Source of the DNA: Apostichopus japonicus
Lineage: Eukaryota; Echinodermata; Holothuroidea; Aspidochirotida; Stichopodidae
Direction of reading: 5' to 3'
Assembly: GCF_037975245.1 (NCBI RefSeq)
Contig: NC_092569.1
Coordinates: 29,348,168-29,412,167, forward strand
Length of the DNA: 64,000 bases
This document shows positions 9,758-36,496 of this stretch, one piece after another. Below the pieces are notes generated by a model. The model saw nothing but the letters and a program-made list of their open reading frames with translations, did no database searches and had not been told where the DNA came from. Position 1 is the stretch's first letter. Each line of letters begins with the position of its first letter. The position numbers and the translations under genes are program-made.

Positions 9758-10086
9758 CTACACTGGTCGTAATTTCATCTCTGTGTATTTTAGGCCGCAG
9801 TCGTATCCATCAAGAAAACTCCAGTATATGTTCGTTCCTCGAGTTGAGCCGACGTAGTCTCCGTTGAGGTGAGAATACGCACAATAGGCACAGGTACGTC
9901 CGACAGGGAAACTACCGCAATAAAATTCATGAGAACGGCAAGAATAATAATAACTATAATTGTAATGATCGTCGAACCACCAGGCTCCTTGATGCTTCTC
10001 GGCGCAGTCATAGGAACTCGACTCATCGTTATCCCGATCACGTGTGCTGAATGGTTTGTTGTTGCCATACGACATAGCATCAGAAC
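9758..10086 (-). CDS. Paralogue A exon 20, FReD2 C-terminal part with Tyr/Cys-rich insertion
   Basis: 329 nt, entered in phase 1, ending KLRPV and TAG. The calcium-site-like DRDND, CAEKHQGAWWF, SHLNGDY and the final KLRP block match FReDs. Between WWF and SHLNG there are 33 residues with four cysteines and many tyrosines, where most FReDs have about six residues and one Cys. The same insertion is in B and C. Confidence 0.9.
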
Positions 10087-13000
10087 CTACGGATTCGAGA
10101 AAGAAAACAAACTTCAAATGTTACGTGCACTTTATCTTGCCGTATTTTATATGACTTAATGTTAGTATTAGTGCTTCTCTAGTGAACTGTTATTTCTTAA
10201 AGCAATACAAACTGTATTTACTGAAAGGAAAAACCACATCAGTATATTATACACGATTTCACAGAGCAAAAACTAACCGTGAAGTTGCGTTGCCGGCGTC
10301 TTCGTAAGGCTTTACTAACAGGTTTGTCTACGTGTTTTTAGTAAATTCCTCAAGTTTGTCTTCTGCAAACATTTATTTATTACGAATATATAACCGATAA
10401 CTAGCAGATAACTAGCAGTAGGGTGTAATGTATATTATTGTATTTGACACTCATTAGCAATCACTATATCGTTCTAAATTTCTAAAACTTAAATCAGAAA
10501 TAGAAACGGCATATTAGGATTTTTTATTTCATTTGCTTATTGTTATCATCTGTTCATTAATTTGATAGTAATTTCATCATTCAGCGGTTAGTGCCAGAAA
10601 TAGTAAACTTTCTTACAAATTAATTTCCAATGTCTCAAACTTGAGACAACGGACTAATGGTAGTATACATTCGGGGTGAAAATTTTAAACAATTTATTCA
10701 TACAAAAGCGATGAATCTACGTAGAATGTTTTAAAGCTACATTAGATCAATATTTGTGCAAGCTATTAAACTTCTTTCTGTCTACGTAGTTGTTTTCGCA
10801 TTGATCATTTGGCTATCACACAGTAGGCTAAGTTGTGGTTTGTAACCTTCTTGTTACGCTATTGGCTATTTATGTTCATTTTGTTTTGTTGAAATTATGC
10901 TTACTAATGTGTGTAAAAATAACATACTTGTATCATGTGTATTTGATAATGATGTCATCAGTATTTCATCATATTGTGTCTATGTCCACATAAATCATGA
11001 AGTTCACATTTTAGAGAGGCAATGACCTTCTTTTGTTAGCCCTGTCAGTCAGACTGATCACAAATGACTGTTTAAAGATATAAATATGTCACTGCGTGGC
11101 TACGTTAAGGCAATTTCTCACTTACTTTGTCAAAAATTTAAACAAAAAAAGTTAATCGAAATTTTTAAACAATATGTATATATATATATATATTTAATAT
11201 GCTTCTTATTTTAACATTTTTGATACGATTGATGTTCAATGCGTAAAAGTTAAGACAGAAATTGCTCAGTATAGCGTATTTACTAGTTTGTCATGATTTG
11301 TAGGTATCACAGCTAGACATAAGTTACGAGAAACATGGTTGTTGGAAAGGATGTGTAAATATGTAGATTAAGATATGAAGTATATTTCAGGTTCAATATG
11401 AAGTTTCATGGATTAGTGATCAGATGCTAAGGACACAAGTGTAATGCTTTTACACTCATGTTTCGTGAGTTATTTGCATTAATCATTTAATAATTAAACT
11501 ATTAAAAATAACATTCTTGCATTTTGTGTATATTTGATAATGATGTCATCCGTATTTCATCATATTGTGTCTACGTCCACACAAATCAAAGTTCAAATTT
11601 TAGAGATGCAATGACTTTCATTTGTTGGCACTGTCAGTCAGACTGATCACAAAGGACTGTTTAAAGATATTAATATGTCACTGCGTAGCTACATTAAGGC
11701 GCTTTCTCACTTACTTTGCCAAATATGTAAATATAGAAAGTTAATTGAAATTCTTAAACAATAAATAAATAAATATATATATATATATTTAATATATTAC
11801 TTATTTTTTTAAATTTTTAATTTGTATATGATTGATGTTCAATGTGAAAAGTTAAGAAATAAAATGCCCAGCATAGTGTATTTACTATTTTTGTTCAGAA
11901 TGTGTGGGTATTGCTGCTAGACATACGTTACGAGAGAAACGGTTATTGGATAGGATGTGTAAATATGTAGATTAGAATATTAAACATATTTCAGGTTCAT
12001 TATGAAGTTCCATTGATAGGTGACTAGATGCTAAGGAGACAGGAGAAATGCTCTCTCACTCATGGCTATATTTAGCTACCTACCTATAACGTTTAACTAC
12101 CATGTATACGTGGATATTCCTTCCCATATTTTAATGAATTGTTTGTCAACAAACATCTGTTAGATCAGGTGTTAAAACATGCAGATATGCTTTTACTGTA
12201 AAACAATGACGAACGTAGAGAATGTCATTGTTATTTGTTAGAATGCATGTAATTAGTAAATGGCAAATAATGATACCAATAAAATACAGAGTAGCTTACC
12301 TGCATTTCCACTATATGATCCAATTGATAGTCGATATTTGTCCGCCTCGTCACTTATGCTAAATGAGGAATAGAGGGCGTAATACGACGACCCTCTTGAA
12401 TCGGTGAGGTCTATCCGGAGACTGTATGTTTTTTGGTTGGTAATTGAGTGTATGTAACCATTACCTAGCCAATGATCACGACTAGGATGTCCAAATCCGT
12501 TCTTGTATTCAGCCCAAATACGATAGAAATCAACAGAGGCACTTGATCGTCGCTGAATGACCTATGAGTATAAAGAGAAATGTACATGTGACAGGAGTAA
12601 GTGAGAAATATGTAATGTGTCTTCCACACTTTCGCAGAACAAATGTATTCAGTTGCAAGGCACTGCACTGTTTTAAATATTCGTGCACAACTCACCGTCC
12701 ATCCTCCTCCGTTACTTTCCATCTCACAGTAAACCTGAATGCCGTGTGGCCAAGTATCAGGGTAAATGGTGTAAACTCCATCACTGCGTGTACCGGAAAC
12801 ATAAAGCTCGTAGCAATCTTTTGGAATTGCGCTGGTGCACGTCACTCCGTTTCCTTCGTAGCCATCATTGCAGTAACATTTACGGTCATTGTTCCTCGTA
12901 TCACAGGTTGCGTGAGCACTACACTGGTAAGTCTCATCTATAAGACGGTTGTTCCTACAAGTTGATTTTCGTGTACATCTTGCATTAGCGTAAAACTGGC

Positions 13001-16000
13001 CCTCCTAATTTATGATATTCAGCGGGAAAAACAAAAATGAAATATGAATTTGCAGTTGTCACAATGATGTGTACAGGACTTCAACGCTTGGGTGACCAAT
13101 GCAAAATTCACCCTGAGTGATATAGGTAAAGCTATGAACCTTGATGAAGGTTTTATTAGGACTTGATACCAACACTAAAGTAGGGGGCCTAGTTATTCGC
13201 CATAAAAAGGTGGCTGACATATGATGCATTCAAGGATTTATTGCAACTGTACATGAACCCGATAATTTTTAACTGCAAGACTATGGTAAGAAGTATCCAT
13301 GAAATGTATGTATCGTTGATAAGGGAATGTTCACCTGTATAGGAGTGGTCTTATGCGTTCAAGCTAAGTGTAATACATCCATCGACTGACAGTTTTGTCT
13401 GGACTGGCGACCGAAGTGAGGTCGATGGCCCCTGCTCAACCGCGATGCAAGCGCTATTCATTTATCTTTAAATATAATGCGATAATCAACAAGTTTGAAT
13501 AATAAAAGGTTTCCTTTTAAGTATATGGACAATGGAGTATTATAAAAGTATTTGAAATGCCATTACAGAGCCGTACTGACCCTTAATACACTTCCTTTGT
13601 CAGCAACGAAGCAGTTGTGGGTGCACGTCGCTCCGTCCCCATTGTAGTTTTGATTGCAGTAACATTTACGGACACCGCTCCTCGTATCACAGGTTGCGTG
13701 TTCACTACACCGATAACTCTCATCTGTAAGGTGGTTGTTTCTACAAGTTGATTTTCGAGTACATCCTGAATTAGCGTGGAACTGGCCCTCCTAAGTTAAG
13801 TATTTAGTGAAAATACTAATAAAGTAATCATAAATTGCAGGTGTGAAAGTGAAATATAAGGGATTTCATCGGTGCATGACCAATGCAAAGTTCCCCTCGA
13901 TTGAACTAAGTTAAAAAAATAAACTTTAAGAAAGTTTTATTAGGTCTTGATACCGACCCCAAAGTAGGGGGCATATGGTTTCGCCATTAATAAAAATAGC
14001 CCTCAAAGATTCCATTCAACAACTGATTACGATATTTGGGACACCATACGCCTGTAATTAGTTCTAACTGCTAAACGGTGGTAAGAATTATGTATGATTT
14101 TTTTTGTAAAAGGTTTATAAAGGGGTTGCACACCCGTAAATAGGAGTGGTTCTATGCTTCCCGACTAAATTTAATACATCACCCGACTGACAGTTTTGTC
14201 TGGACTGGCGACCGAATTGAGGTCCATGGCACCTGCCCAACTGCGATGCGAGCGCCTTTAATGTATCTCTAAATATTATGCGATACTCAACAAGTTTTAA
14301 ATAGTAAAATATTTTCCACTAATTATATGGATAATGAAGTATGAGAAAGTATTTAAAATGTCATTACAGAACCGTTCTGACCCTTAATACACTTCCTTTG
14401 TCAGCAACGAAGCAGTTGTGGGTGCACGTCGCTCCGTCTCCTTGGTAGTTTTGATTGCAGTAACATTTACGAACACCGCTCCGCGTATCACAGGTTGCGT
14501 GTGTACTACACCGGTAACTCTCATCTGTAAGACGGTTGTTTCTACAAGTTGATTTTCGAGTACATCCTGAATTAGCGTGAAACTGGCCCTCCTAAGTTAG
14601 ATATTGGATGAAAATACTAATAAATGAATTATGAATTTGCAGTTGTCACAATTTAATGAAAAGGGTTTCAACGTTTTGTGACTGATGCAAAATTCCCCTC
14701 GACTGATATAGGTAAAGGTATGAACTTGGATGAAAGTTTTATGATGTCTTGATACCAACTCTGAAGTAGGGTGCCTATTTATTCGCCATAAAATAGGTAG
14801 CTGCCAAATAATGCATTCAAGGGTTTATGGCAACTATGCATGAGCCGAAAAATATTTTTTACTGCAAGACTGTGATAAGAACTATCCATGTAAGTTTGTG
14901 TATCGTTGATAAAGTAACATAAACCCGTATAGGAGTCGTATTATGCCTCCCCACTAAGTGATATACACCCATCGACTGACAGTTTTGTCTAGACTGGCGA
15001 CCGAAGTGAGGTCGATGGTCCCTGCCCAACCGAGATACGCGCGCTATTCATTTAAATATATATGTAATGCAATAATCAACAAGTTTTTACAGTAAAAGGT
15101 TTCCTTCTAAGTATATGGACAATGAAGTTTCAAAAAAATATTCAAAATGCCATTACAGAACCGAACTGACCCTTAATGCACTTCCTTTGTCAGCAACGAA
15201 GCAGTTGTGGGTGCACGTCACTCCGTCCCCATTGTAGTTTTGATTGCAGTAACATTTACGGCCATCGTTTCTCGTATCACAGGTTGCGTAAATACTACAC
15301 TGGTAACTCTCATCTACAAGCCGGCTGTTCCTACAAGTTGATTTTCGTGTACATCTTGAATTAGCGTAAAACTGGCCTTCCTAATTTATGATATTAAGCG
15401 GGAGAAAAAATTATGAATTTGCAGTTGTCCCCATGAATTGTACAGGATTTTAACGCTTGGATGACCATTGCAAAATTCCCTTTGACTGATATTGGTACAG
15501 GTATGAACCTTGATGAAAGTTTTATTAGGGCTTGATACCAACACTAAAGTAGGGGGCCTAGTTATTCGCCATAGAAAGGTGGCTGACAAATGATGCATTC
15601 GAGGATTCATTGCGCATGTACATGAACCCGATAATAATTTTTAACTGCAAGACTGTGGTAAGAAGTAACCATGAAATATATATATCGTTGATAGGGAAAG
15701 TACAGCCGTATAGGAGTGGTATTATGCTTTCCCATCCAAGTGTAATAGATCCATCGACTGACAGTTTTGTCTGGACTGGCGACCGAAGTGAGGTCGATGG
15801 CCCCTGCCCAACCGCGATGCAAGCGCTATTCATTTATCTTTAAATATAATGCGATAATCAACAAGTTTAAATAATAAAAGGTTCCTTCTAAGTATATGGA
15901 CAATGAAGTATGAGAAAAGTATTTAAAATGCCATTACAAAACCGTACTGACCCTTAATACACTTCCTTTTTCAGCAACGAAGCAGTTGTGGGTGCACGTC

Positions 16001-19000
16001 ACTCCGTCCCCATTGTAGTTTTGATTGCAGTAACATTTACGAACACCGCTCCTCGTATCACAGGTTGCGTGTGTACTACACTGGTAACTCTCATATATTA
16101 GACGGTTGTTTCTACAGGTTGACTTTCGTGTACATCCTGAATTAGCGTGGAACTGGCCCTCCTGATTTAAGATATTCAGTGGAAACACTAATAAATTAGT
16201 GATGAATTTGCAGGTGTCAAAGTGGAATGTAAGTGATTTTCAACGGTGCATGACCAATGCAAAATTACCCTTCATTGATCTAAGTAAAGGTATCAAACTT
16301 TAAAACAGTTTTACAAGGCCTATATGCTGACTCCAAAGTAGGGGGATAGGGATTCGCCATTAATTAAAATAACCGTCAAATGTAGCATTCAACAACTTAT
16401 TTAGATATTTTTCATGCATTATTCCTGCAATGATTTCTTACTGCAAGACTGTAGTAAGAACTATATATGACTTTATGTGAAAGGTTTATGAAGAGGTTGC
16501 ACACCCGTAAAGGCGTGTTCTTGTGGTTCCCAGCTAAGTGTAATACATCCCTCGCCTGACAGGTTTGTCTGGACTGGAGACCGAACTGAGGTCCATGGCA
16601 CCTACCCTACCGCAATGCGAGCTCGATTATTGATCTCTAAATGTAATGCGATAATCAACATGTTTAAATAGTCATATGATTCCCTGTAATTATATGGACA
16701 ATGGAGTATGATAAAAGAAGTAAAAATGCCATTACAGAACCGTACTGACCGATAAAACACTTCCCTTATCAGCAACGAAGCAGTTGTGGGTGCACGTCGC
16801 TCCGTCCCCATTGTAGTTTTGATCGCAGTAACATTTACGGACACCGTTCCTCGTATCACAGGTTGCGTGTGTACTACACCGGTAACTCTCATCTGCTAGA
16901 CGATTGTTTCTACAAGTTGATTTCCGTGTACATCCTGAATTAGCGTAAAACTCGCCCTCCTAAGTTAGATATTGGATGAAAATACTAATAAATGAATTAT
17001 GAATTTGCAGTTATCACAATGAAATGTGTAGGGTTTCAACGGTTTTGTGACCAATGCAAAATTCCCCCTTGACTGGTAAAGGTATAAACCTTTATGACAG
17101 TTTAATGTGGTCTTGATACCAACTCCGAAGTATGGGACCTAGCTCTTCCCAATAAAGGTAGCTGCCAAATATTGCATTCAAGGGTTCATTGAGACTATAC
17201 ATGAGCCCGATAATTGTTTCTAACTGCAAGACTGTGATAAGTAGTATCCATGAAATTATGTATCGTTGATAAGGGAATGTACACCCGTATGGGAGTACTC
17301 TTATGCTTCCCAGCTAAGTGCAATACATCCATCGACTGACAGTTATGTCTAGACTGGCGACCAAAGTGAGGTACATGGCCCCTGCCCAACCGCGATACGA
17401 GCGCTATTCATTTAAATATATATGTAATGCAATAATCAACAAGTTTTTACAGTAAAATGGACAATGAAGTATGAGAAAAGTATTCAAAATGCCATTACAG
17501 AACCGAACTGACCCTTAATGCACTTCCTTTGTCAGCAACGAAGCAGTTGTGGGTGCACGTCACTCCGTCCCCATTGTAGTTTTGATTGCAGTAACATTTA
17601 CGGCCATCGTTTCTCGTATCACAGGTTGCGTAAATACTACACTGGTAACTCTCATCTACAAGCCGGCTGTTCCTACAAGTTGATTTTCGTGTACATCTTG
17701 AATTAGCGTAAAACTGGCCTTCCTAATTTATGATATTCAGCGGGAGAAAAAAATTATGAATTTGCAGTTGTCCCCATGGATTGTACAGGATTTCAACGCT
17801 TGGGTGATCAATGCAAAATTCACCCTGAGTGATATAGGTAAAGGTATGAACCTTGATGAAAGTTTTATGAGGTCTTGATACCAACATCAAAGTAGGGGGC
17901 CTAGTTATTCGCCATAAAAAGGTGGCTGACAAAAGATGTATTCGAGGATTTATTGCGACTGTTCATGAACCGGATAAATATTTTTAACTGCAAGACTATG
18001 GTAAGAAGTATCCGTGAAATGTATGTATCGTTGATAGGGAAAGTACACCCGTATAGGAGTGGTATTATGCTTCCCCAGTCAAGTGTAATACATCCATGGA
18101 CTGACAGTTTTGTCTGGACTGGCGACCGAAGTGAGGTCGATGGCCCCTGCCCAACCGCGATGCCAGCGCTATTCATTGATCTTTAAATATAATGCGATAA
18201 TCAACAAGTTTAAATAGTGAAAAGTTTCCTCTTAAGTACATGGACAATGAAGTATGAGAAAAGTATTTAAAATGCCATTACAGAACCGAACTGACCGATA
18301 ATACACTTCCTTTGTCAGCAACGAAACAGTTGTGGGTGCACGTCACTCCGTCCCCATTGTAGTTTTGATTGCAGTAACATTTACGGACACCATTCCTCGT
18401 ATCACAGGTTGCGTGTGTACTACACCGGTAACTCTCATCTACTAGACGATTGTTTCTACAAGTTGATTTTCGTGTACATCCTGAATTAGCGTAAAACTCG
18501 CCCTCCTAAGTTAGATATTGAATGAAAATACTAATAAATGAATTATGAATTTGCAGTTGTCACTATGAAATGTATAGGGTTTCAACCGATGGGTGACCAA
18601 TGCAAAATTCCCCTTGACTGGTAAAGGTATAAACCTTTATGAAAGTTTAATGAGGTCTTGATACCAACGCCGAAGTATAGGGCCTAGCTCTTCCCAATAA
18701 AGGTAGCTGCCAAATGTTGCATTCAAAGGTTTATTGCGACTATACATGAGCCCGATCATTGTTTCTAACTGCAAGAGTGTGATAAGTAGTATCAATGCAG
18801 TTATGTATCGTTGATAAGGGAATGTACACCCGTATGGGAGTGGTCTTATGCTTCCCAGCTAAGTGCAATACATCCATAGACTGACAGTTTTGCCTTGACT
18901 GGCGTGCGAAGGGCGGTCCATGTCCCCTGCCCAACCGCAATACGAGCGCTATTCGGTTATATATACAAATGTAATTCGATAACCAACAAGTTTAAGCAGT

Positions 19001-22000
19001 TAAATGTGTCCCTCTAAGTATATGAACAATGAAGTATGAGAAACTGCCATAACAGAACCGTACTGACCCTTAATACACTTCCTTTGTCAGCAACGAAGCA
19101 GTTGTGGGTGCACGTCACTCCGTCCCCTTGATAGTTTTGATTGCAGTAACATTTACGGACACCGTTCCTCGTATCACAGGTTGCGTGTTCACTACACCGA
19201 TAACTCTCATCTGTAAGACGGTTGTTTCTACAAGTTGATTTTCGTGTACATCCTAAATTAGCGTAAAGCTCGCCCTCCTAAGTAAGATATTGAATGAAAA
19301 TACTAATAAATGAGTTATGAATTTACAGTTGTCACTATGAAATGTATAGGATTTCAACGGTTGGGTGACTAATGCAAAATTCCCTTTGACTGGTAAAGGT
19401 ATAAACCTTTATGACAGTTTAAAGAGGTCTTGATACCAACTCCGAAGTACAGGCCTAACTCTTCCCAATAAAGGTAGCTGCCAAATATTGCATTCAAGGG
19501 TTTATTGAGACTATACATGAGCCCGATAATTGATTCTAACTGAAAGACTGTGATAAGTAGTATCCATGAAATTATGTTTCTTTGATAAGGGAATGTACAC
19601 CCGTATGGGAGTACTCTTATGCTTCCCAGCTAAGTGCAATACATCCATCGACTGACAGTTTTGTCTTGACTGGCGTGCGAAGGGCGGTCCATGTCCCCTG
19701 CCCAACCGCAATACGAGCGCTATTCGGTTATATATACAAATGTATTGCGATAACCAACAAGTTTAAGTTGTTAAATGTGTCCCTCTAAGTATATGAACAA
19801 TGAAGTATGAGAAAAGTATTTGAAATGCCATAACAGAACCGCACTGACCCTTAATAAACTTCCTTTGTCAGCAACGAAGCAGTTGTGGGTGCACGTCATT
19901 CCGTCCCCATTGTAGTTTTGATTGCAGTAACATTTACGGACACCGTTCCTCGTATCACAGGTTGCGTGAATATTACACTGGTAACTCTCATCTATTAGAC
20001 GGTTGTTTCTACAAGTTGATTTCCTTGTACATCTTGAATTAGCGTAAAACTCGCCATCCTATTTTAAGACATTCAGTGACAAAACTATTAAATGAATTGT
20101 GAATTTGCGGTTGTTACAATGGTCTGTACGGGATTTCAATGGTATTTTGCCAATTTCAAATTCCCCTCAAATTAATATAGGTATTGGTATGATCATTTAA
20201 GACAGTTCCATGAGGTATTGCTACCAACTTCGAAGTAGGGAGCCTAAGGATTCGAAATAAAACGGTAGGTGCCAAATGTTGCATTAAACTGGTTTATTGC
20301 GACTATACATGAGCCCGATAATTAGTTTTAAATGCAGGGCTGTGGTAAGAAGTATCTATAACATTTGGTGAAATTTATATAAGGGAATGTACACCCGTAT
20401 AGGAGGGATCTTATGCTTCCCAGCTAAGTTTAATACATCTCTCGACCGACAGTTTTGTCTTGACTGGCGACCGAAAGGCAGTCCATGTCACCTGCCCAAC
20501 CGCGATGCTTGCGCTATTCTCTTAATATAATGTAACAATCAACAAGTCCAAATAGCAAAGGTTTCCTTCTTATTATATGGACAATTAAGTATGAGAAAAC
20601 TATATAAACATGACATGAAAGAACCGTACTGACCCTTAACACACTTCCTTTGTCAGCAACGAAACAGTTGTGGGTGCACGTCACTCCGTCCCCTTCGTAG
20701 TTTGGATCGCAGTAACATTTACGGACACCGTTCCTCGTATCACAGGATGCGTGATCACTACACCGGTAACTCCTATCTATAAGACGGTTGTTTCTACAAG
20801 TTGATTTTCGTGTACATCTTGAATTAGCGTAAAACTCGCCATTCTATAAAGATATTTAGCAAAACATACTAACCATTGAGTTATGAATTTGCTGTTGGTA
20901 CAGTGAATTGTACAGAATTTCAACGGTGTGTTACCAATTCAAAATTCCCCTTGACTTTATTTAGTTATGGGTATGAAAATTTATGACAGTTTCATGAGGT
21001 CTTGATACCAACTTCAAAGAACGGAGCCCAGGGACGCAATAAATAGGTAGCTGCCAAATGCTGCATGCTACGGTTTATTGCGAGTATACATGAGCCTGAT
21101 AATTAGTTCTAAATGCAGGACTGTGATAAGAAGTATATATGAAATTGTGTGTAATTTTCATAAGGGAATGTACACCCGTATAGGAGTGGTATTATGGTTC
21201 CCAGCTAAATGCAATACATCCATCGACACAGTTTTGTCTTGAGAGGCGACCGAAGGGCGGTCCATGTCCCCTGCCCAACTGCAATACGAGCGCTATTCGG
21301 TTATGCGATAATCAATAAATTTAAATAGTTAAAGGTTTCCTTTTTATAATATGGACAATAAAGTAAGAGAAAAGTATCTAAAAATGCCATAACAGAACAG
21401 TACTGACCCTTAATACACTTCCTTTGTCAGCAACGAAACAGTTATGAATGCACGTCACTCCGTCTCCATGGTAGTTTGGATTGCAGTAACATTTACGGAC
21501 ACCTGTCCTCTTATCACATGTTGCGTGTTCACTACACTGGTAACTCTCATCTATAAGTCGGTTGTTCCTACAAGTTGATTTTCGTGTACATCTTGAATTA
21601 GCGTAAAACTGGCCCTCCTATTATAAGATATTCAGCAAAAAATATACTAATAAATAAATTATTAATAAATCGGTGTCAAAGTGAAATGGATGAGATTTCA
21701 ACGATAGGTGACCAATGCAAAATTCCCTTCGGTTGATCTAGGTAAAGGTATTAAACTTTAAGAAAGTTGTATAAGGTTTTTGAAACGGACATTAAACTAA
21801 ACGGGATAGGTATTCGTCGTTAATACAAAATAGAAGTCGAATGTTGCATTCAACAAATTATTTCGATATTTTTCGATCACTTGGCCTACAATTAGTTTTA
21901 TCCCCAAGAATGTTGCACAAAGTTTCTATGATTTTCGTCTAAGAATTAAAAAGTGGTAGCACAGCCGGAGGAGGGGTCTTATGCTTCCCAAATAAATGAA

Positions 22001-25000
22001 GTGCATCCCTCGACGGACAATTTTGTCAGAAATGGCGTCGAAGGTGGGGTCCATGGACCTGTTCAAACGCGATGCGACACTACTTGGATATTTACAAATG
22101 TAACTCAATACTCAACAAGCTTATATAGTAAAATGTTTCCTTCTTATTATATGTACAATGAATTAAAAGCGAATAATTAAAAGAGACCTGAAAGAACCTT
22201 ACTGACCCTTATTACACTTCCTTTGTCAGCAACGAAGCAGTTGTGGGTGCACGTCATTCCGTCTCCATGGTAGTTTGGATTGCAGTAACATTTACGGACA
22301 CCGGTCCTTGTATCACAGGTTGCGTGTTCACTACACTGGTAACTCTCATCTATAAGTCGGTAGTCCCTACAAGTTGATTTTCGTGTACATCCTGAATTAG
22401 CGTAAAACTCGCCCTCCTAATTTAAGATATTTCAAAGATATAAAAAAAAACTAATAAATAAACTATGAATTTACGGGTGTCACAGTAAAATGTACGGGAT
22501 TTCAACTGTGGGTGGCCAATATTCTTCCCAAACCGCGATGCGCATACTACTCGGTTAAGTGTAAATGTAATGCGAAGATCAAGAAGCTTAAATAACAAGA
22601 GGTTTCCTTCAATTATATTAAAAATTAATTAAAAGGAAATCATTTAAATTGAAGGAACCGTACTGACCGTTAATACACTTCCTTTGTCAGCAACGAAGCA
22701 GTTGCAATGGTTCCGAGGGATGCATTGTTCTTGCTGTCTCAGATAATCGCCAACACAAACACATTGCTCTGTTTCTGTGCGAGAGGTAGCCGAGATGCAA
22801 GTATCGGGGTCTTCACAAGTCCTCTCACATGTCTCATTGCTAAAAATCTCATTAGCTGGACACCATTCAGGGTTTAATTCTAGAGAACAGGAAAGAAAGA
22901 AAGACAATGTAAATAATAGTAACCTGATACAGACACGAAGAATATGATATCATACAAAGTCTAGTTTTGGCCATTCCTTCAATACGTGGCTATTAGCACG
23001 TTACAGAAAAGAAAAACACCTTCAGAATCAGTTCGAATTAATCTAGAATATTTCAAATCAGGTAGTGGTCGTTCCGTAGTCAAATTAATGATCATATCTA
23101 TTCAACATTAAGAGATTTCACCCCATTATTTGTTGTACAACTGGTCTGATACCAGAGAGTCATAGCTCATTTCTGTTTCACAGTTTCCCTCGGTGTTAGT
23201 ATACTACTTTATGACAACATTGACAATATTATAGTGTAGCTCCGTTGTCTTGCTGGTATACCATATGTTTACGCGTTGTTTATGTATTGTAGCAGTTTTT
23301 TCAAGCTAAGAAAACATGCTTGACAAATTTACTTCCAAAAGATCCATTCGTTCTCAGAATAAATCTTTCAGTTGACACACGTTTACATTTGACATTTAAT
23401 AAACGATCACCTTTTTTGTGATACTGGATTTCAATTGAATAAGAATGTAAAAGACACTTACCATCTGATATTGCAAATGTACCTAAACTAGAGATATAAT
23501 ATTTCCCCCATTCATCTGAGATGCGAAACTCGTCGTATGTTACATAATAAGTGTCCCCAGCAACGTTCTCAAAGTCCATTCGCAGTTGGTACCGCTTTTG
23601 ATTTGTTAAGACGGCAATTTTCTCATTTCCGATCCAAAACTCACTTCCTAGAAAGCCAAAGCCATTTCTGAAGTCTTTCCAACTTCTATTAAACTTTACA
23701 GAATCTAATCTTCGTCGCTGTAATACCTACAACGAATATCAAAGAAGACAAGCTTTAACTAGGAAGTTAATAAATATTTATTATTCGTTCCCTTCTGCAA
23801 TGCGATTTGTTGCTAACAGTTATAACAGAGAAATAAGAACTTTTATATCTAACTTTAATTGTAGTGTGGGCTAGAGGTCTACAATTTTCTTAGAAGATGG
23901 ACAACACTGTATTTAATTTCAAAATATATAAAATAATTGATTCAAATCTCGTTTCGATAAAAAATATCAAATATTAAGAAAAAAACGATTTTGTATTACA
24001 TCGCTATATATTCGTTTATGCAAACTTGAGTAAATTTGTACAAAACTAGTGAAAGTTGAAAAGGAGACATCATGTAATCAGCCATACCGTCCATCCACCA
24101 GCATCAAGATCATTATTACAGTAAGCCTCAAACGATTCCGGATAGCCATCTGGTTTAATAAGGTACACTCCAGATGTATTGTGGATAGAGGAACATGTAT
24201 TCGAAACTTCTTTGCAATCCCTCGGATACGCTGGTTGTTGAAAAACAAAGTATGATATACCTTTATGGAAAGAAAAACAAAGTAAAAATGTTAATGCAAT
24301 TGAAAATCAGTTCAATTAATGAAAATATCGCCTTTGATTATACGTCAATTGTTATAGAAATGGATTATTTACTATGAGAGTAAGATAATAGGTCAGTCTT
24401 TATGCCAATTATTACTCAACTACCATATAGATGAAGATATAGCGACTAAATTAAGTACAGTAAACGTTACTTAATTTATACATGTAACTGTTTTGAAGCA
24501 TTGGTTCTCAGTCTGCAATGGAAATTTAGAGACCATGTTAATTGAATTTATATTTCATCAAGTTTCCGTAGTTATCGATCATATCCAAGTTTGATCAAAA
24601 GACTCATGAAAAAAAGTCAAATTCGATTTAACTTACCTGAAAAAAAATAGATGTAGCACGTAGGACTTGATCAAAATATACGACTCAGAGGAAATCAATG
24701 TTTTAATATATGTTAGGAAATGGTGGCACGATTGAAAACAAAAAGTATAGAGCGACCATTAAATAACCTTGAAAATTCTCAGCCTTTCAATTTGTCCAAC
24801 TGATGTGTTAACGTTTATAATACATAGGTGATATAACTTACAGAGGTTGCTTCTTATTATAACATAAATCATATAACATTACAATTACACCTACCTGAAG
24901 ATCTTCCCTCGGCACTGACGATTACCTGTGTAATAATAGACATTTTCTGAATACATTACAAGACATACAGAGTGTTGCAGTCAACACTAAGCAGGATCAG

Positions 25001-28000
25001 ATTAAAATGTATAATGAACCAGTTCGAGGGAAAGGAGGAGCATTTCGAGAACTTGTCCCAAAAAATGTTACATTTAAACAAGTAAAGTCGATTTAAACTT
25101 TGGTAAATTCTCCTGATCACCAATTTATATGATTTGTTTGTTTTTTCTATATTCCATATCTGATTTACAGGTCAATGATCACTTACAGAGTACAACTTTC
25201 TTCCAGGAAGCATTAGATTGGCATTTTCCGCTTTTTACAGCCACTCTCGTACATGATATGCAAGCTAACGCGAGAGAACAAAGGCAATAGCCGGCTGCTT
25301 GAATAAAATGCTTTGTTGCTCAATGCAGACAGATGTTCTTTGTTCATAATATATTTTGACATAAGAACATTCCAGACATGAGTTGTAACTCATTTGTGTT
25401 TGACAGTCCATCGTAACGGGTATGGATCATAAGCTATTCTTTCTGGAATACAATTACTGTTTCTTGATACTTACCGTGCACATGAAACACTGAGATTTAA
25501 AAAGTGTCATTTTACTTGTAAGGTAAGTGCAAAGATATATACTAGTATATCTTACTAAATAAACAAGTGAAGCAGCGATGTAGAAGCTCAGCTAAGCTTC
25601 TATTTGATAAGTTTGTTTCTAGTGTTGTGCAGATATCCTGAATATCGGTTTTGGCCGATATCCGATATTACAATCCCAATATCGGCCCATATGCCGATAT
25701 TTTAAACAGCAATAATGATGGTCAAAATACACGTTAAGTCTTGCTTCAATACATACAGTATCATAATTATAATCGACTGTCGTAAGTTATTGTCGTTTTC
25801 ACAACTCAAACGCAGTAACAGCTTGTTTACCTCTCATTTGCAGAAAAAAAGGCATATTTTATAACATGTTTCCTATCCTAAATAAACGATTATATTTCCC
25901 ACCAAGTTGATATGCATGAAATTGTGTGCTATCATTTGTTGTGTGTAAAAACAGAAGCCTATCCTTCCTGTTTCTTCTGTTGCACTATTCGTTACTCTGT
26001 TTGACCAACTATGTTCAACACTTAGGCTGCAAGTCTTATACAAACTGCCTTCAAATGGAGCCACGAATTTCTTAGCAAAAGTGACATCGTGTGATGAATA
26101 AGCTCATTTAATGTAGAAAAGACACGATCATATCCCGGCTAAGAACTTATCGGCTAAGAACAATATCGGTTTGCCATTATCGGCATTGGGCCTTAATTTT
26201 ACCGATACCGATATGCCGCCGATATCACAAACTATTATCGGCGCAACACTAGTTTTGATTGGAAATATGTTGAGCAGTTTTATCCATATTTTTGTTCGTA
26301 AGGTATAAGTCATAGGCAAAATAACGATGTCAATCCCTTATGCCTTATGCTCCTTCTTAGCAGACATAGGCCTAGTTTGTTACAATGTTAGAAATTTGTA
26401 ATTCCTCAAATGGTAACACTTTCACAAACTAACTAGAAATGTAAGACAACAATATTAAAAGCTAACTCAACAAATCCACGTGGTATAGAAAGAAGAATAA
26501 AGATTTAACATTAAAATGGTATCGTCTATAACATGATGATAATATTACATAGTGTGACATTGCTCTTGTAACAGTAGAGAAGGGTCGGAAGCAGCTTAAA
26601 CAATACATTTTTCTTGTTTGCTAATTCCGAATTATACTAATATAGACAGGTTAGAACAGCTGAGCATATTACAATTCAAATTTTATGAAATGACGATGTT
26701 ATCTGTCAAAACAAAAACATAATGTATAGCATTTCCAGTACATGAAGTGAATTTAGACAATTCTCTGAATAACCAGAATAAAACAAGCTGTAAATAATTT
26801 CTGAAATTTAACAGTTCTCTGATGTTTTCTTCTCCATCAAATTTGTGAAAATTCTTGAAAACAATGTTTTCACATGGGTCATCTTGTCAATAATTTTAAC
26901 ACGTCGAACAGGTCAAGGGTTACTTTTTGGCACAATTTAGTATCCTTCTAGAAGAATATGGCCCTCAGATACAAGTCTATGGTATCACATTTACCTAAAG
27001 TTATAAATTATCAAATCTACATAATCGAAATCATTACGTGGATTGATATGAGCTATTTAGAAGTACATATTATACTTTGCTGTTGCCAAAAGGAGTAAAG
27101 TACACGATATCATACAATCTCTACAAAGATATTGACGCTTAAAGGGGAGGGGTGGGGGTTGGGCCGGTGAGATATATTGTTATCGTCGAATATGTTATTC
27201 AGGAAGCAACGACTTACACTGTTTGAGACGTTACTGCTGTATCTTTACACAACATTGTATTTATTATCACAGATTGCTAAATATCACATGCCGTATTTTC
27301 CCTGTATAAAATGCTCGTGCGAACTATTGCCAGAACATATCATTTGGAGGGATTAATTTTGATATCTCTCAACTTATTACCATACATGGAGAAGTTAAAG
27401 GTATTTCGACAATACTTTCCAGTTTTTGCAACATGTTAGAAAAGAGACATTTAAATACAGTGTGATATATTTGATGTATAATTTTTACAAGTCTATCATC
27501 AATGTCTATTTTAAGTATTGGGAGAGTTCACTTTTGCATACTGAACTACATTACAACTTACATGTTACTGTTAAACGACAAACGAAAAATTAAGTTCTTT
27601 ACTACACCGACCAGCCACATAGAGGGAAGGTGTGAGTCGTGTGGGAAGGAGGGCGTGATGGAGGACAGCGAAGAGGGAGAGCGTGGGTGGGGATCAGTGA
27701 CTACTCCCATCGTATACATGTTATAGAGATAGAGTACATTTTCAGTAGTATATCTGGTCATTAACTATGAACGACGAAATACATGAGAATATCTTCGCGT
27801 TAGTTTTACATTTAATTTCTGTATTCAAATTGAGGCTATGAAACGTTACCTAGTTTGACACTCACAAGGAAATTTACATGATTGGAACGACTTTATGGAG
27901 CATTTTATGTGAAAATCAAGTAAACTACCCGTGATATGAGAGGTTTAAATAGAGGACCATGAATATCTGTCTTTCTCGTATCAGTTTATTTCCAGATTAT

Positions 28001-31000
28001 ACATTGCCACTAAATGAACTATTTCGCACAGTTGTAGTTTATATATGCATCAATTATTAATCCTTTAGACGATGAATAGCCTGTAATATTCCAAAATTTG
28101 ACAAAAACATCACTTTGAATTGTCATTAAAATGTTGGTAAATTGGATTATGTAAAAAAATATATATATATAAAAATGAAATATAATTTACAGTTTAGAGA
28201 TTTATCCTAACTTGAACTTCAAAAAAAAACTACTAAAGACAAAACAAGGAACTATGTTTTAAAGAGTTACTGATCAACATTACTTTGAAATTAAAATTGA
28301 AGAATATAATTATGTAAGTACAAACAACCAGCATAAGAATCATGTTAGCTTTAAGGTGTTAGAAATGTTCTCTGCATCTACACTGAGTTATTCCCCTAGG
28401 AATATGGCCTTTAGTGATTTTCTTATGATAGGGTGAAATTGTAGTTTTACTTTGTCCTAAATATGGCTTATACCTGACACTATAATGTAACAAAAGGGAT
28501 TTAATGGAAGAAAACATACAAATCTTCCGTGAAATTTGATTAATTTGATAAGGCATTTCAAATTTTTCAAACAGTTTTCTTTTTCTTACTATTTGTCTGG
28601 ATTGGTGGCACAAAGGATAAAGAAACATTCTACTACAAATTTTATTTTGACTATGATTGAAAAATTGTTTTTATCAGTAAAAATGAAATGCAATTTACAT
28701 TTTGTTGAGAAAGCTCTCGCTCCAGTTATGTTGTATTACTAATTCTCTACGTTGCTTTAACTGTTATAGATTAATCCTTATTGGAAGTAAAAAAACAAAA
28801 CAAAAAACAATAACAAAACTAAAGACAGAACAATAAACGATGTTTTAAAGAATTCCTGATCAACATAACTTTGCATTTAAAATTAAAGAGTGCAATTATT
28901 TAAGTACAAACAGCCAGAATAAGAATCAGGTTATTTTTAAACTGTTAAAATGTTCTCGGCTTGTACACTGAATTATTTCCCTATTAATTTAGCCTTTAGT
29001 GGTTTCTTATGATAGACTGAAGTTGTAGTTGTACTATGTCTTAGAATATGGCTTATTCTTGATACTATAATGTAACAAAAGGGATTTAATGGAAGAAAAC
29101 ATACAAATATGCCGTGATATTGATTTATTTGAAAAGAAATTTACATAGTTTTTAAACAGTTTTCTTTTTCTAACCTCATGTCGGTATTGACGGCACAAAG
29201 ACTAAAGAAAACGATTTGTATTTAGACTATGACTTTAAACATATAACTATTATCCACCTTTAAAATTCACATTGCACTGTAAAGATTGGTTTGAAACTTA
29301 AATAATTTAAACGACACAACCTAAACTAAATGTACAAAGCTAATGATTAGTTTTCATCATTCAAATGACTCGAAAAGGTAAATCAAATGTTACAAAAATG
29401 GCAATTTAAAAGCTCTCATAAAAACCCTAAACGCAGAAGTAACGCCTATGACATTAAAAAGCGCCTTTGTGGGTTTTTTTTTAATTCTATTTTATTCAAT
29501 TACAGATCGTGTAATAACAATACTATAAGAAAACAATGCTGTTACAATACTATTAGTTGTCATTACCATCACCAAATCGCTACTGCTTACTAAACTTCAA
29601 CGTTTTTGAAATTTAAAAGGCATGCGATAGAGATGTTTTTTTTTTTAAACTTTGTCGTTTCAAGTCAAATAAATGAACATGTCTTACATTTTTTTGCTCT
29701 TATGTCAATAATCTTTTAAAAAGTGCGGTTAACACAAGTGTATTTATCAAGATAAGAAAGCGGAATATTGGGATAATATTTCCTGGGAATTACTAACAAT
29801 ATAAAGCCTGAAGGAAAAAGAGAAACATGGAAAGAGAAAAATTGGAAGCTAGTCTCTACAATCGCTGTAGACATTTTTCATGATCGCGTACCATATAATT
29901 TTTGCGTGAAGGCAATTGAAAGCCACAACGTAGCATCTGAAAACAGCCGTTGCACTCACAAAAATTGTTTTTGTACTTTTCTGGCTTTGTTGAAGTATAT
30001 TTTTCTTTGATATTTCGTTCTGCTTAGTTTATTATTTTCAGCATTTAATTTCCTAAATGTCACTTTCTTTTTTTTATTTTCCATAAATTACTTTTAAATG
30101 AGATTGACGTGTTTACCAGTTAGTTTTAATGTTATTCAACCTTGTTTCATTGAACATGTACATGTACAAAATAGGGATCGTAAAATTTATGTCTTTAAAA
30201 TACATTTCAAAACATCTTTACTTTTTGTTGTAGACTATTTGTCACATAATGCTACTTAAATAACGATATTATTAACGTAATATGATGTAAGCATGTAAAG
30301 GAAGTAACATTTAGGTGCTCTTAAGAAATTGTAAAGCTGCAAATGTTAGGTTTGGATGATAGTTTATAGCAATATTATCACACTTAAAACTGAGCATTGC
30401 TTTGAATGTGATTAAACCTGAATCGGTCTTGCCACTCTTTTAAAGTTATACATATCTTTTGTAAAAGGATGTTCCTTATCGTTCAAAATTTTGTTCACAG
30501 TAGTTATCCAACTGTTTGACTATTTGAAATGGAAGTTAATTAAACAGCTTTGTGGTTAGATTATTACATAGAAATGTTTTGCTTTTAGATTAGCCAACGC
30601 AAATTTTGCTTTAATGTATTCATAAGAATAATTTGAACAACAACAAGCAATACAGTGTCCGTTTTGGAAATCATATCAAAATAACAGACCTGACAAAGGA
30701 AGTTGCCTCTTTACAGATGGATATCAAGTTATTCGTATGTAATTTATGTCAAATATTAAAAAAGAAGCAAGGCATTTGATAAATAAAAACATTGGAAACG
30801 TTTTTACCGTACAGAGAGTACCGAGTATCACTGTATCGATAGAGAATATGATTATTGGATTTTTAACAGTGAGAAAAATGTTAACATATGAATCTACAAG
30901 TAAATGAATACAATACTTAAGTATTAAGTTTTTCCCAAAAAAAATATGGAGCATGAATTAATGAGCTAGAATAATACACATGTGAATTTAAACTCAGTAA

Positions 31001-31651
31001 TTCATAATATAAAATGAAGGAGTGTTGTAACGTATTGGTATGTATCTGTGAAAGGTAGGGTTGGCTATTGGTGGTTTTTTAAAGGATATGTGGAGAAAGA
31101 TATACTCACAGTTTGAAAAGAGACTGCTTTTTCCCGACCATATCACGAAACGTGATTTACTTTAAAAAATTGGTGTGTAGCGAAAATCGATTGAGATGTT
31201 TGAGTTAGCTTTCTTAAGTATTTTACACGTAAGCAAAGTGTAGAGAATACAGTATTTAGGCATAAGAAAACCAGTTATGACTATTTTAGCCCTTTTTTTT
31301 AACGCAATATGTGTGGTTAAATTAAAAGTCGAAACATTGTTGTCCTATCGCGAAGTTAAAAAATGTGAGTATATTTAATTGAAGGCCTTCTTATTGAATA
31401 TTATCAGGTATTTTTATCGAAGTTTTCCTACTTCTTGGAAGATGTAAACACTTCAGTTTGTCACATCATTTAATATTAACAGAGTTAGCTCAACAACACA
31501 CTAACGCAACTTATGTAACTTTAGAAACAGTCAGAAGATATTCAGTGGTAAAATACAAAATATATTTAATAATGGAAAAACTTACCTTTTCTGTTCCAAA
31601 CGAGTTCCAAATCGTCAAAACAGTCAAACAAACTTTGAAAAACTTCTCCAT
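9758..31651 (-). CDS. Paralogue A: secreted half-FReD / TIL-like / 13 EGF / FReD protein, 20 exons
   Basis: Joining 20 exons gives 4137 nt, exactly 1378 codons plus stop, with agreeing phases and no internal stop. Predicted order: signal peptide (1-22), short linker (23-33), FReD1 without its C-terminal part (about 34-169), TIL-like module (169-239), twelve 70-residue EGF repeats (240-1079), a 13th EGF fused to FReD2 (1080-1378). FReDs are known in ficolins, tenascins, FREPs and fibrinogen, where the C-terminal part binds calcium and sugars or acetyl groups. FReD2 keeps the family blocks DRDND, CAEKHQGAWW and HLNGDY. A secreted pattern-recognition or matrix role is inference. I do not recognise a named gene. 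Alternative first exons or EGF skipping are possible. Confidence 0.8.
10915..12060. repeat. Two-copy tandem repeat of about 590 bp inside the FReD2 intron of paralogue A
   Basis: The unit beginning AATAACATACTTG near 10918 recurs near 11507. The copies share TTTGATAATGATGTCATC, the TCAGACTGATCACAAA segment and a terminal AT-dinucleotide run. The paralogue B intron has only one copy. Confidence 0.65.
12300..12561 (-). CDS. Paralogue A exon 19, FReD2 middle part
   Basis: 262 nt, phase 0 to 1. It begins VIQRRSSASVDFYRIWAEYK, with GFGHPSRDHWLGN, YSLRIDLTD and SISDEADKYRLSIGSYSGNA. This is a standard FReD middle section, one codon shorter than FReD1 exon 4. Confidence 0.88.
12696..13004 (-). CDS. 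Paralogue A exon 18, EGF fused to FReD2 start
   Basis: 309 nt, phase 0 to 0. The first half is a 13th EGF (CRNNRLIDETYQC, CSAHATC, then CYCNDGYEGNGVTC). It passes without an intron into FReD2 (IPKDCYELYVSGTRSDGVYT, then VYCEMESNGGGWT). The EGF-FReD fusion within one exon is conserved in paralogues B and C. Confidence 0.88.
13581..13790 (-). CDS. Paralogue A EGF exon 12 (exon 17)
   Basis: 210 nt, phase 0 to 0. It begins EGQFHANSGCTRKSTC, with CRNNHLTDESYRC, CSEHATC and NYNGDGATC. It is the last stand-alone EGF cassette before the EGF-FReD exon. Confidence 0.86.
14382..14591 (-). CDS. Paralogue A EGF exon 11 (exon 16)
   Basis: 210 nt, phase 0 to 0. It reads CRNNRLTDESYRC with CSTHATCDTRSGVRKCYC and NYQGDGATC. 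Eight cysteines are kept. Confidence 0.85.
15171..15380 (-). CDS. Paralogue A EGF exon 10 (exon 15)
   Basis: 210 nt, phase 0 to 0. Its sequence is the same as EGF exon 7: CRNSRLVDESYQC, CSIYATC, GSALR. Parts of the flanking introns also match, so the copy event was larger than the exon. Confidence 0.85.
15952..16161 (-). CDS. Paralogue A EGF exon 9 (exon 14)
   Basis: 210 nt, phase 0 to 0. It reads CRNNRLIYESYQC and CSTHATCDTRSGVRKCYC; the tail is FVAEKGSVLR, with Glu for the usual Asp. Eight cysteines are kept. Confidence 0.85.
16750..16959 (-). CDS. Paralogue A EGF exon 8 (exon 13)
   Basis: 210 nt, phase 0 to 0. The core reads CRNNRLADESYRC, with CDRNYNGDGATC; the exon ends GSVLS. Eight cysteines are kept. 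Confidence 0.84.
17513..17722 (-). CDS. Paralogue A EGF exon 7 (exon 12)
   Basis: 210 nt, phase 0 to 0. It contains CRNSRLVDESYQC, CSIYATCDTRNDGRKC and the tail GSALR. By eye it is identical over all 210 nt to EGF exon 10 (15171-15380), three cassettes away. Confidence 0.85.
18296..18505 (-). CDS. Paralogue A EGF exon 6 (exon 11)
   Basis: 210 nt, phase 0 to 0. The core reads CRNNRLVDESYRC and the exon ends GSVLS. Eight cysteines and the NYNGDGVTC block are kept. Confidence 0.84.
19068..19277 (-). CDS. Paralogue A EGF exon 5 (exon 10)
   Basis: 210 nt, phase 0 to 0. It begins EGELYANLGCTRKSTC and contains CSEHATC and the NYQGDGVTC block. Eight cysteines are kept. Confidence 0.84.
19849..20058 (-). 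CDS. Paralogue A EGF exon 4 (exon 9)
   Basis: 210 nt, phase 0 to 0. It begins DGEF and has CNIHATC in place of CSTHATC; the tail reads GSLLR. All eight cysteines are kept. Confidence 0.84.
20634..20843 (-). CDS. Paralogue A EGF exon 3 (exon 8)
   Basis: 210 nt, phase 0 to 0. It begins NGEF, from a changed acceptor-proximal codon (ATAG then AATGGCGAG), and reads CSDHASCDTR followed by CYCDPNYEGDGVTC. Eight cysteines are kept. Confidence 0.84.
21408..21617 (-). CDS. Paralogue A EGF exon 2 (exon 7)
   Basis: 210 nt, phase 0 to 0, all eight cysteines present. Differences from its neighbours are CDKRTGVRKC instead of CDTRSGVRKC, and CIHNC instead of CTHNC at the tail. Confidence 0.85.
22207..22416 (-). 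CDS. Paralogue A EGF exon 1 (exon 6)
   Basis: 210 nt, phase 0 to 0. It encodes CRDYRLIDESYQC, then CSEHATCDTRTGVRKCYC with the NYHGDG block, then the THNC tail. Cys spacing fits an EGF-like repeat (x11, x5, x8, x1, x10) with an extra Cys pair outside it. It is the first repeat after the TIL-like module. Confidence 0.85.
22668..22879 (-). CDS. Paralogue A exon 5, TIL-like cysteine-rich module
   Basis: 212 nt, phase 1 to 0. It encodes WCPANEIFSNETCERTCEDP then a CISATSRTETEQCVCVGDYL run ending CIPRNHC. CPANE, CVC, GYLR-like and CIP..HC match the trypsin-inhibitor-like (TIL) family, but eight cysteines are seen instead of the usual ten, so one disulfide is probably missing. The last 12 residues (NCFVADKGSVLT) and the donor are the same as the tails of the EGF exons. 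Inhibitor activity is not implied. Confidence 0.82.
23462..23726 (-). CDS. Paralogue A exon 4, FReD1 middle part
   Basis: 265 nt, phase 0 to 1. It starts VLQRRRLDSVKFNRSWKDFR and includes GFGFLGSEFWIGNEKI, YQLRMDF and the FRISDEWGKYY stretch. This is the standard middle section of a FReD. Just where the C-terminal calcium/ligand part should follow, the frame passes into the TIL-like exon. Confidence 0.87.
24088..24230 (-). CDS. Paralogue A exon 3, FReD1 N-terminal part
   Basis: 143 nt, phase 1 to 0. It encodes YPRDCKEVSNTCSSIHNTSG, then a YLIKPDGYP stretch and YCNNDLDAGGWT. This is the start of a fibrinogen C-terminal domain: DC, the GVY.I.P.G block, and the C...GGWT end where FReDs usually have an intron. 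Confidence 0.85.
24895..24925 (-). CDS. Paralogue A exon 2, 31-nt microexon
   Basis: Acceptor ATTACACAG, 31 nt, donor GTAGGT. Read from phase 0 it gives VIVSAEGRSS and ends in phase 1, which is the phase exon 3 needs. The same exon is conserved at 44766-44796. Confidence 0.6.
25619..26252. mobile_element. Non-autonomous hAT-like element, deleted copy
   Basis: The ends TAGTGTTGTGC and GCGCAACACTA are imperfect terminal inverted repeats, with CCGATATCGG-type subterminal repeats at both sides. The flanking 8-mers GTTTGTTT and TTTTGATT agree at 6 of 8 positions, as an aged hAT-type target duplication would. No transposase is seen. It sits at the same site in unit B, so insertion came before the duplication. 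Confidence 0.6.
28130..29260. repeat. Two-copy tandem repeat, period about 586 bp
   Basis: TTTTAAAGAGTTACTGATCA at about 28257 and the near-identical TTTTAAAGAATTCCTGATCA at about 28843 start similar blocks, each later containing CAGTTTTCTTTTTCT. The matching place in unit B holds three copies. Confidence 0.65.
31586..31651 (-). CDS. Paralogue A exon 1, signal peptide
   Basis: ATG at 31651-31649; 22 codons, MEKFFKVCLTVLTIWNSFGT then EK, ending in phase 0 at donor GTAAGT. A basic residue, a hydrophobic core and a polar end make a short secretory signal. The copy in unit B has the same length and is nearly identical. It lies 6.7 kb upstream of exon 2. The link is supported by phase and conservation, not by transcript data. 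Confidence 0.65.
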
Positions 31652-36149: not shown

Positions 36150-36496
36150 TTATGTCTGCACTGGTCGTATTTTCATATCTGCATATTGTAGGCCGCAGTT
36201 GTATCCACTAAGGTTAGTCCAGTATATGTTCGTTCCTTGAGTTGAGCCGTCGTAGTCTCCGTTGAGGTGAGAATAGGCGCAAATAGCACACCTGCTGCTT
36301 CCGTAAGGGAAATAATCGCAATAATATTCACTAGTGCGGCAATAAGAATAACTATAATAATAATAATAATAATAATAATAACCGAACCACCAGGCTCCTT
36401 GGTGCTTCTCAGCGCAGTCAAAATCACTCCACTCATCATTGTCTTCACCACGTGTGCTGAATGGTTTGTTGTTGCTAAACGACATAGCATCATAAC
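36150..36496 (-). CDS. Paralogue B FReD2 C-terminal exon with nine-Tyr run
   Basis: 347 nt, entered in phase 1, ending RPVQT and TAA, two residues longer than A and C. It has FSTRGEDNDEW at the calcium-site position (A has DRDND), CAEKHQGAWWF, then a run of nine Tyr encoded by a TAT repeat, four insertion cysteines, and SHLNGDY. In this copy it is out of frame with the upstream exon because of the 2-nt deletion. Confidence 0.82.

Follow-up and report, generated by a model that had tools for sequence, protein, structure and literature searches.

A chromosome-scale tandem family of half-FReD, TIL-like and TILa-EGF proteins with a hypervariable loop in the last FReD of a sea cucumber

Gene structure and domain composition

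The locus of interest lies in a 64,000-nucleotide stretch of the genome of the sea cucumber Apostichopus japonicus (assembly GCF_037975245.1, contig NC_092569.1, positions 29,348,168–29,412,167). This whole stretch is hereafter called the window, and positions without a contig name refer to it. Its minus strand carries a gene encoding a half FReD (FReD1), a TIL-like module, thirteen TILa-EGF units and a complete, C-terminal FReD (FReD2). The gene belongs to a large family of tandem copies on one chromosome, whose members carry a hypervariable loop in the last FReD.

Rebuilding the gene from the raw sequence gave 20 exons, running from 31651 to 9758, and 1378 codons plus a stop; all internal introns are GT-AG, and all phases are compatible. 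The exons, splice sites, phases and codon number of the original prediction for this stretch are thus reproduced, with one change: the start of the first FReD1 exon, formerly placed at 24230. The AG used there is missing from all nine other-locus paralogues compared (it is present in the window's two genes), while nine of the 11 loci compared carry an alternative AG that lies 30 nt further upstream and keeps the phase, the other two being cut at that point. Since the paralogues lack the first AG and carry the second, the exon most likely begins at 24260. The product with this start has 1388 residues, of which 124 are cysteines. The features of the gene are as follows.

31586–31651, minus strand: exon 1, with the start codon and a putative signal peptide, MEKFFKVCLTVLTIWNSFGTEK (judged by eye)
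24895–24925, minus strand: exon 2, encoding VIVSAEGRSS, phase 0 to 1 (identical peptide in the window's second gene, 44767–44796)
24088–24260, minus strand: exon 3, first part of the half FReD (A subdomain), start most likely as corrected through paralogues
23462–23726, minus strand: exon 4, second part of the half FReD (B subdomain), matching Pfam Fibrinogen_C 2–124 of 221 together with exon 3
22668–22879, minus strand: exon 5, TIL-like module and first part of a TILa domain (Pfam; below the cut-off for TIL)
13581–22416, minus strand: exons 6–17, twelve 210-bp phase 0-0 exons, each with a TILa completion and an EGF_3 domain (Pfam, exon comparison)
12696–13004, minus strand: exon 18, the thirteenth TILa-EGF_3 unit, fused to the A subdomain of FReD2 (Pfam)
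12300–12561, minus strand: exon 19, B subdomain of FReD2 (Pfam; dN/dS 0.24)
9758–10086, minus strand: exon 20, P subdomain of FReD2, with the calcium site, the variable loop and the stop codon (Pfam, family comparison)
9884–9973, minus strand: hypervariable loop, DDHYNYSYYYSCRSHEFYCGSFPVGRTCAY, between GAWWF and the pocket cysteine

Exon 1 has a 90% identical counterpart in the window's second gene (52454–52516). For the 151-bp first-exon region, 40 of 93 candidates in the genome were scored, the region itself being one of these 40 matches; all lie on the same chromosome, and 36 sit 5–15 kb upstream of a half-FReD exon. A small exon candidate near 25187–25260 was dropped, as it breaks the frame from exon 1.

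Searching the 1388-residue product against Pfam returned two Fibrinogen_C stretches, 13 EGF_3 stretches and 13 TILa stretches. The Fibrinogen_C matches (288 bits, against a cut-off of 22) cover model positions 2–124 of 221 in the first FReD and 1–220 in the last. The module that the original prediction called TIL-like matches the Pfam TIL model from end to end, but at 16.7 bits against a curated cut-off of 24.5, and TIL does not appear in the Pfam listing of the full product. By eye, the module has eight cysteines ahead of the TILa cysteine; a typical TIL domain has ten. For both of these reasons we keep the label "TIL-like". The predicted thirteen EGF repeats are indeed thirteen units, but after the Pfam search their plain "EGF" label was replaced, each unit consisting of a TILa domain plus an EGF_3 domain. 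Each 210-bp exon closes one TILa domain and opens the next. The units are spaced 763–801 bp apart, introns included, and exons 6–17 are 0.857–1.000 identical in pairwise comparison (mean 0.904), with two exons identical. Units repeated with their introns and an identical pair of exons are what would be expected from recent unequal exchange. The EGF cysteine spacing is C-x11-C-x5-C-x8-C-x-C-x10-C in all 13 units. No Pfam model for Ig, FN3, VWD or C8 matched the product at E up to 0.1, and no match to the TIL-TILa-EGF part was obtained among solved structures at the same threshold.

A tandem family on one chromosome

The genome (671.6 Mb in 35 contigs) was searched with single exons of four kinds: TIL, TILa-EGF, last FReD and half-FReD. 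Each search gave at least 150 matches, nearly all on the chromosome C9. TIL exons were then paired with (i) a half-FReD exon at most 3.5 kb upstream on the same strand, and (ii) a last FReD exon before the next TIL exon and at most 60 kb away. Pairing used 148 TIL exons and 106 of 150 last-exon matches, and the resulting family counts are lower bounds. A half-FReD exon lies directly upstream of 136 of the 148 TIL exons, and 96 of the 148 also have a last FReD exon downstream. All 96 of these complete loci are on C9, with 79 falling within 6.5 Mb (29.3–35.8 Mb). In that cluster, 106 of 118 TIL exons are paired with a half-FReD exon; 500 random placements gave 4.5 on average and never more than 11. 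The recurrence of this collinear set in 96 places and the TILa domain that spans exons 5 and 6 support the original prediction of a single modular protein in which a half FReD, a TIL-like module, an EGF-containing array and a C-terminal FReD follow one another.

From these 96 we fetched 40 compact paralogues, in which the order of half FReD, TIL and last exon follows from the way they were chosen. Between the TIL and last exons, 39 of the 40 contain the exon joining TILa-EGF to FReD2 and the FReD2 middle exon (L042 gave no clean match), mostly with the same splice phases as the window gene. In none of the 40 did the stretch from half FReD to TIL give a match to a third FReD exon. Adding the window's two genes gives 42 loci; in 34 of these an open first half-FReD exon precedes an open second one (in several others the first exon lies outside the fetched stretch), and all five core exons are open in 33, or 32 once the window's frame-broken second gene is removed. 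The number of TILa-EGF units varies: the compact genes fetched have one or two, the window gene has 13, and at least 24 TILa-EGF exon matches lie downstream of the TIL exon at C9:29506609.

The window contains two further members of the family:

36153–52516, minus strand: second gene of the same architecture (first exon 52454–52516, exon 2 44767–44796)
44122–43355, 42707–42504 and 38263–36159, minus strand: half FReD, TIL and FReD2 of the second gene
38705–38397, minus strand: TILa-EGF exon fused to FReD2 in the second gene, which with four further TILa-EGF exons makes five units in total
60673–63631, minus strand: 3' part (TILa-EGF-FReD2) of a third gene, locus L009, whose TIL exon lies outside the window at C9:29412248

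In the second gene the frame is broken near 38227, inside the middle exon of FReD2; this marks a pseudogene or else an assembly error. The loop of this gene contains nine consecutive TAT codons.

Two side observations concern the extent of the family. Firstly, family exons at C9 34.6–34.7 Mb recur at 35.3–35.4 Mb at an offset of 677–678 kb and with matching scores. Secondly, the only half-FReD-like and TIL-like sequences off C9 among the matches listed are a pair at C20:22.57 and 22.65 Mb, about 79 kb apart, which may be an old relative of the family.

Purifying selection on the half FReD

Residues 13–136 of the half FReD, as searched, match residues 151–277 of a 411-residue fibrinogen gamma chain. 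By the usual subdomain limits of this fold, the half FReD consists of the A and B subdomains and lacks both the P subdomain and the C-terminal strand that is inserted in the B sheet. The pooled ratio of non-synonymous to synonymous change (dN/dS) over 32 of the 42 genes is 0.21 for the second half-FReD exon, and by this measure the half FReD is held by purifying selection. The corresponding values are 0.32 for the TIL exon, 0.24 for the FReD2 middle exon (F2b) and 0.28 for FReD2 exon F2c; without the frame-broken gene (31 genes) all are unchanged, except that F2c becomes 0.29.

The first half-FReD exon has three cysteines in all 35 copies counted and the second has none, which leaves one cysteine unpaired within the half FReD. 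A part in multimer formation would be consistent with this. In fibrinogen, the C-terminal strand is inserted in the B sheet and can be pulled out, and polymers have been proposed to form when it enters a neighbouring molecule (PMC7659954; this and all following papers are cited from excerpts).

A hypervariable loop in the last FReD

Of 95 last exons, 74 open copies were compared (three were closed, eight more were dropped and ten belonging to other FReD families were set apart). The loop follows a conserved GAWW and one further residue, and runs up to the cysteine that corresponds to Cys414 of FIBCD1. It is 26–43 residues long where, by the alignment, FIBCD1 has two, and the 74 exons contain 72 distinct loops. 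Tyrosine makes up 27% of loop residues and cysteine 13%; elsewhere in the compared segment the shares are 9% and 4%. Within this variation some positions are fixed: cysteines occupy loop columns 72 and 83 in 74/74 copies and column 65 in 72/74. The cysteine count is odd in 68 of 74 loops, which fits pairing with the one extra conserved cysteine found downstream of the loop in 73/74.

Loop tyrosines are encoded mainly by TAT (547 of 670 codons, as opposed to 221 of 503 outside the loops), in runs of up to 10 codons. This excess suggests triplet slippage as one source of loop length change. Length changes among the 74 exons, a set chosen as open, are whole codons; three further last exons (L056, L063 and L104) carry a stop inside the loop.

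Loops diverge further than their surroundings. Among 31 genes, loops differ by a mean amino-acid distance of 0.506, against 0.245 for the remainder of their exon and 0.187 for the half-FReD exon; with 32 genes the values hardly change. Loop distances correlate weakly with half-FReD distances (Spearman 0.25), compared with 0.84 between half FReD and TIL. Across 37 disjoint sister pairs, 420 non-synonymous and 122 synonymous changes fall in the loop, and 338 and 224 in the flanks; dN/dS for loop and flanks is, respectively, 0.83 and 0.37 at kappa 1, 1.03 and 0.46 at kappa 2, and 1.25 and 0.54 at kappa 4. Loops of unequal length occur in 17 of the 37 pairs. Compared with its flanks, the loop is clearly under weaker constraint and has diverged further; simple counting over the 37 pairs, with dN/dS near 1, did not show net positive selection on it.

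Five last exons of other FReD families (L098, L099, L101, L102 and L103; C9 15.8–18.0 Mb and C1) carry a Cys/Tyr/Ser-rich insert of 26–29 residues in the same place. Since these other families share the insert position, the loop may predate the TIL-containing family.

The loop enters at a calcium-framed site without the acetyl pocket residues

In FIBCD1, the acetyl pocket is formed by Tyr405, His415, Tyr431 and Trp443, with a cis peptide at Asn413-Cys414 and calcium ligands Asp393 and Asp395 (PMC3908420). The aspartates of this ficolin/FIBCD1-type calcium site are kept in all 74 open copies, as are both pocket-framing cysteines (401 and 414). The pocket residues are not: position 405 is His in 74/74, position 415 is Ala, Gly or Thr in 74/74, and position 443 is Tyr in 66/74 and never Trp. 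The Tyr431 position falls in an alignment gap (window gene only). As read from the alignment, then, the last FReD retains the calcium-framed site without the acetyl pocket residues, and the loop enters just before the equivalent of Cys414, a cysteine that contributes to the acetyl pocket in FIBCD1 and tachylectin 5A; this arrangement would place the loop at the ligand site in space.

Other features of the window

Intron 1 contains a stretch (25619–26252) with near-inverted ends, CTAGTGTTG and CAACACTAG, that is rich in words like GATATCGG (by eye) and is probably a short non-autonomous transposon; the repeat search reported no long arms there. The last intron holds a tandem duplication of about 590 bp (10936–12064), 72–94% alike in pieces. 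At 2034–2384, on the minus strand, an open frame matches Pfam Acyltransferase with 36.9 bits, and is perhaps an exon of an AGPAT-type gene adjoining the array. An Rfam search of the window gave no match. Elsewhere in the assembly, the small contig C29 contains pieces of COX1 (14745–31219), probably a mitochondrial insert or an assembly leftover. Among the contigs whose length was read, C23 measures 18.2 Mb and C24 0.13 Mb; this suggests 23 chromosomes, a number known from sea cucumbers, and the mitochondrial genes stand in the order typical of sea urchins and sea cucumbers.

Discussion

We propose that the window gene is a member of a chromosome-scale tandem family of germline-diversified, secreted recognition proteins, probably with an immune role, in which the loop serves as contact surface, most likely for microbial targets. 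We put the probability of this reading at roughly 0.64. The proposed mechanism has four parts: (i) the N-terminal part would multimerise the protein, by way of its odd conserved cysteine and a B sheet lacking the usual C-terminal strand, (ii) a stalk of TILa-EGF units, varying in number by exon-plus-intron duplication, would set the reach, (iii) the Tyr/Ser/Cys-rich loop, tied by disulfides, would replace the acetyl pocket as contact surface, and (iv) with the loop in that role, the tandem array would constitute a germline-encoded repertoire that binds varied targets, most likely microbes. The original guess of a secreted recognition or matrix protein still stands, with the hypervariable loop at the ligand site favouring recognition.

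A bolder version is tentative and, in our judgement, rather doubtful: an antibody-like germline repertoire, in which a disulfide-tied Tyr/Ser/Cys loop sits over the dismantled acetyl pocket and is diversified by TAT slippage and by exchange among more than 90 tandem genes, while the half FReD polymerises the proteins by accepting a neighbour's strand. The long antibody CDR-H3 serves here as a design comparison for the disulfide-tied loop.

Several observations weigh against a recognition repertoire. Loop distances correlate moderately with those of the rest of their own exon (Spearman 0.54, 31 genes), and in two sister pairs the loops are identical. Kappa is estimated to be near 1.2, and the loop dN/dS is clearly above 1 only at kappa 4. 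Synonymous change per codon is itself somewhat higher in the loop than in the flanks (0.101 versus 0.077), and the excess is larger in close pairs; part of the loop divergence may stem from gene conversion, local mutation or alignment error. Several family copies contain stops or frame breaks, and the 677–678 kb offset on C9, which reflects either a recent segmental duplication or an uncollapsed haplotype, may inflate the family count. Finally, A. japonicus FREPs have been tied to regeneration (PMC5638244).

The last of these points leads to the main rival, a matrix, adhesion or regeneration family, in which the TILa-EGF stalk and the FReDs would build or bind matrix and the Tyr/Cys-rich loop would serve for cross-linking or adhesion. 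Tyrosine-rich segments do occur in marine adhesives, which counts in favour of such a role. Similarly, FREPs are the most expanded family in A. japonicus and rise in visceral regeneration (PMC5638244), and tenascins too combine EGF and FReD (PMC11401434). We nonetheless consider this rival unlikely: a structural role needs no such variation as 72 distinct loops in 74 open copies on a constrained scaffold, and the variation sits at the ligand site and tracks the N-terminal part only weakly.

Less likely again, and in our view improbable, is a real family whose loop is a surface insert under weak constraint that drifts through TAT slippage and gene conversion, its diversity being unselected. The loop stops in L056, L063 and L104, a loop dN/dS near 1 and the TAT enrichment with its long runs would all suit this explanation. 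Free drift would not, however, be expected to keep the cysteines of columns 65, 72 and 83 so strictly, and cysteine parity is kept in 68 of 74 loops, with whole-codon length changes in the 74 exons chosen as open. That two neighbouring genes, FReD1-TIL and EGF-FReD2, were wrongly joined in a model built from genomic sequence is very improbable, and we reject it: exon 5 ends within a TILa domain that exon 6 completes in phase, which argues against separate genes, the window's two first-exon matches lie upstream of FReD1, one per gene, with none between TIL and FReD2 among the 40 listed, and 39 of the 40 paralogues fetched have the exons in between as well.

If the recognition reading is true, it could offer a purpose for the reported expansion of sea cucumber FREPs. 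If, further, diversity concentrates in one loop at the ligand site while the rest is conserved, an echinoderm would have evolved a hypervariable-loop repertoire on a lectin scaffold, independently of the Ig, VLR and snail FREP systems. A half FReD under purifying selection, with A and B subdomains and no ligand-binding P subdomain, is also an unusual use of a well-studied fold.

Comparison with known systems

The expansion of FReD proteins in sea cucumbers, proteins that combine EGF and FReD, and FReD families studied for defence are already known. The order half FReD, TIL-like, (TILa-EGF)n, FReD and the hypervariable loop were not found in the open-licence literature searched, and may still be published elsewhere.

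The closest precedent in the same species is the FREP family of A. japonicus, the most expanded there, found in tandem copies mainly on one linkage group and upregulated in visceral regeneration (PMC5638244); an expansion of FREPs is repeated in a preprint on H. glaberrima (PMC13228809). The family described here is likewise a clustered, tandem FReD family. Compared by description only, the two differ in that the excerpted A. japonicus report mentions neither a half FReD nor a TIL domain, a TILa-EGF array or a variable loop, and proposes a role in regeneration (PMC5638244).

Multigene FReD families have been studied for defence in the snail Biomphalaria glabrata, where a FReM consists of an EGF-like plus a fibrinogen domain, and FREPs have IgSF domains and a relatively conserved C-terminal fibrinogen domain (PMC7588048). 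With its 13 EGF_3 domains, C-terminal FReD and no Ig domain at E up to 0.1, the window gene fits the definition of a FReM and not that of a mollusc-type FREP, which has one or two IgSF domains. Its half FReD, TIL-like and TILa modules fall outside the FReM definition, none of them being named in the excerpts of that source (PMC7588048), and its variation sits in a FReD loop.

Tenascins share with the window gene a series of EGF repeats before a C-terminal FReD, their EGF cysteine spacing being C-x3-C-x5-C-x4-6-C-x-C-x5-G-x2-C (PMC11401434). The window gene differs from this spacing in 13/13 units and shows, at E up to 0.1, none of the FN3 domains that in tenascins separate the EGF repeats from the FReD. 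Pairs of TIL and TILa are carried by VWF-type D assemblies, after VWD and C8 domains. A TIL-like module followed by TILa is present here too, but TILa alternates with EGF_3, and neither VWD nor C8 was matched at E up to 0.1.

For the last FReD itself, the nearest systems are ficolins, FIBCD1 and tachylectin 5A. FReD2 gives its best E-values to ficolin-1 and FIBCD1, and shares the calcium aspartates and the two framing cysteines. In contrast to these lectins, the pocket residues are lost and a loop of 26–43 residues replaces the two residues before Cys414.

Lastly, the Sp185/333 (SpTransformer) proteins of sea urchins are not known to have FReD, EGF or TIL domains. The two families are alike in being echinoderm tandem families with extreme diversity and with microsatellites, but whereas microsatellites flank genes and segments in Sp185/333 (PMC3091723), the TAT repeat of the sea cucumber family lies inside the coding loop.

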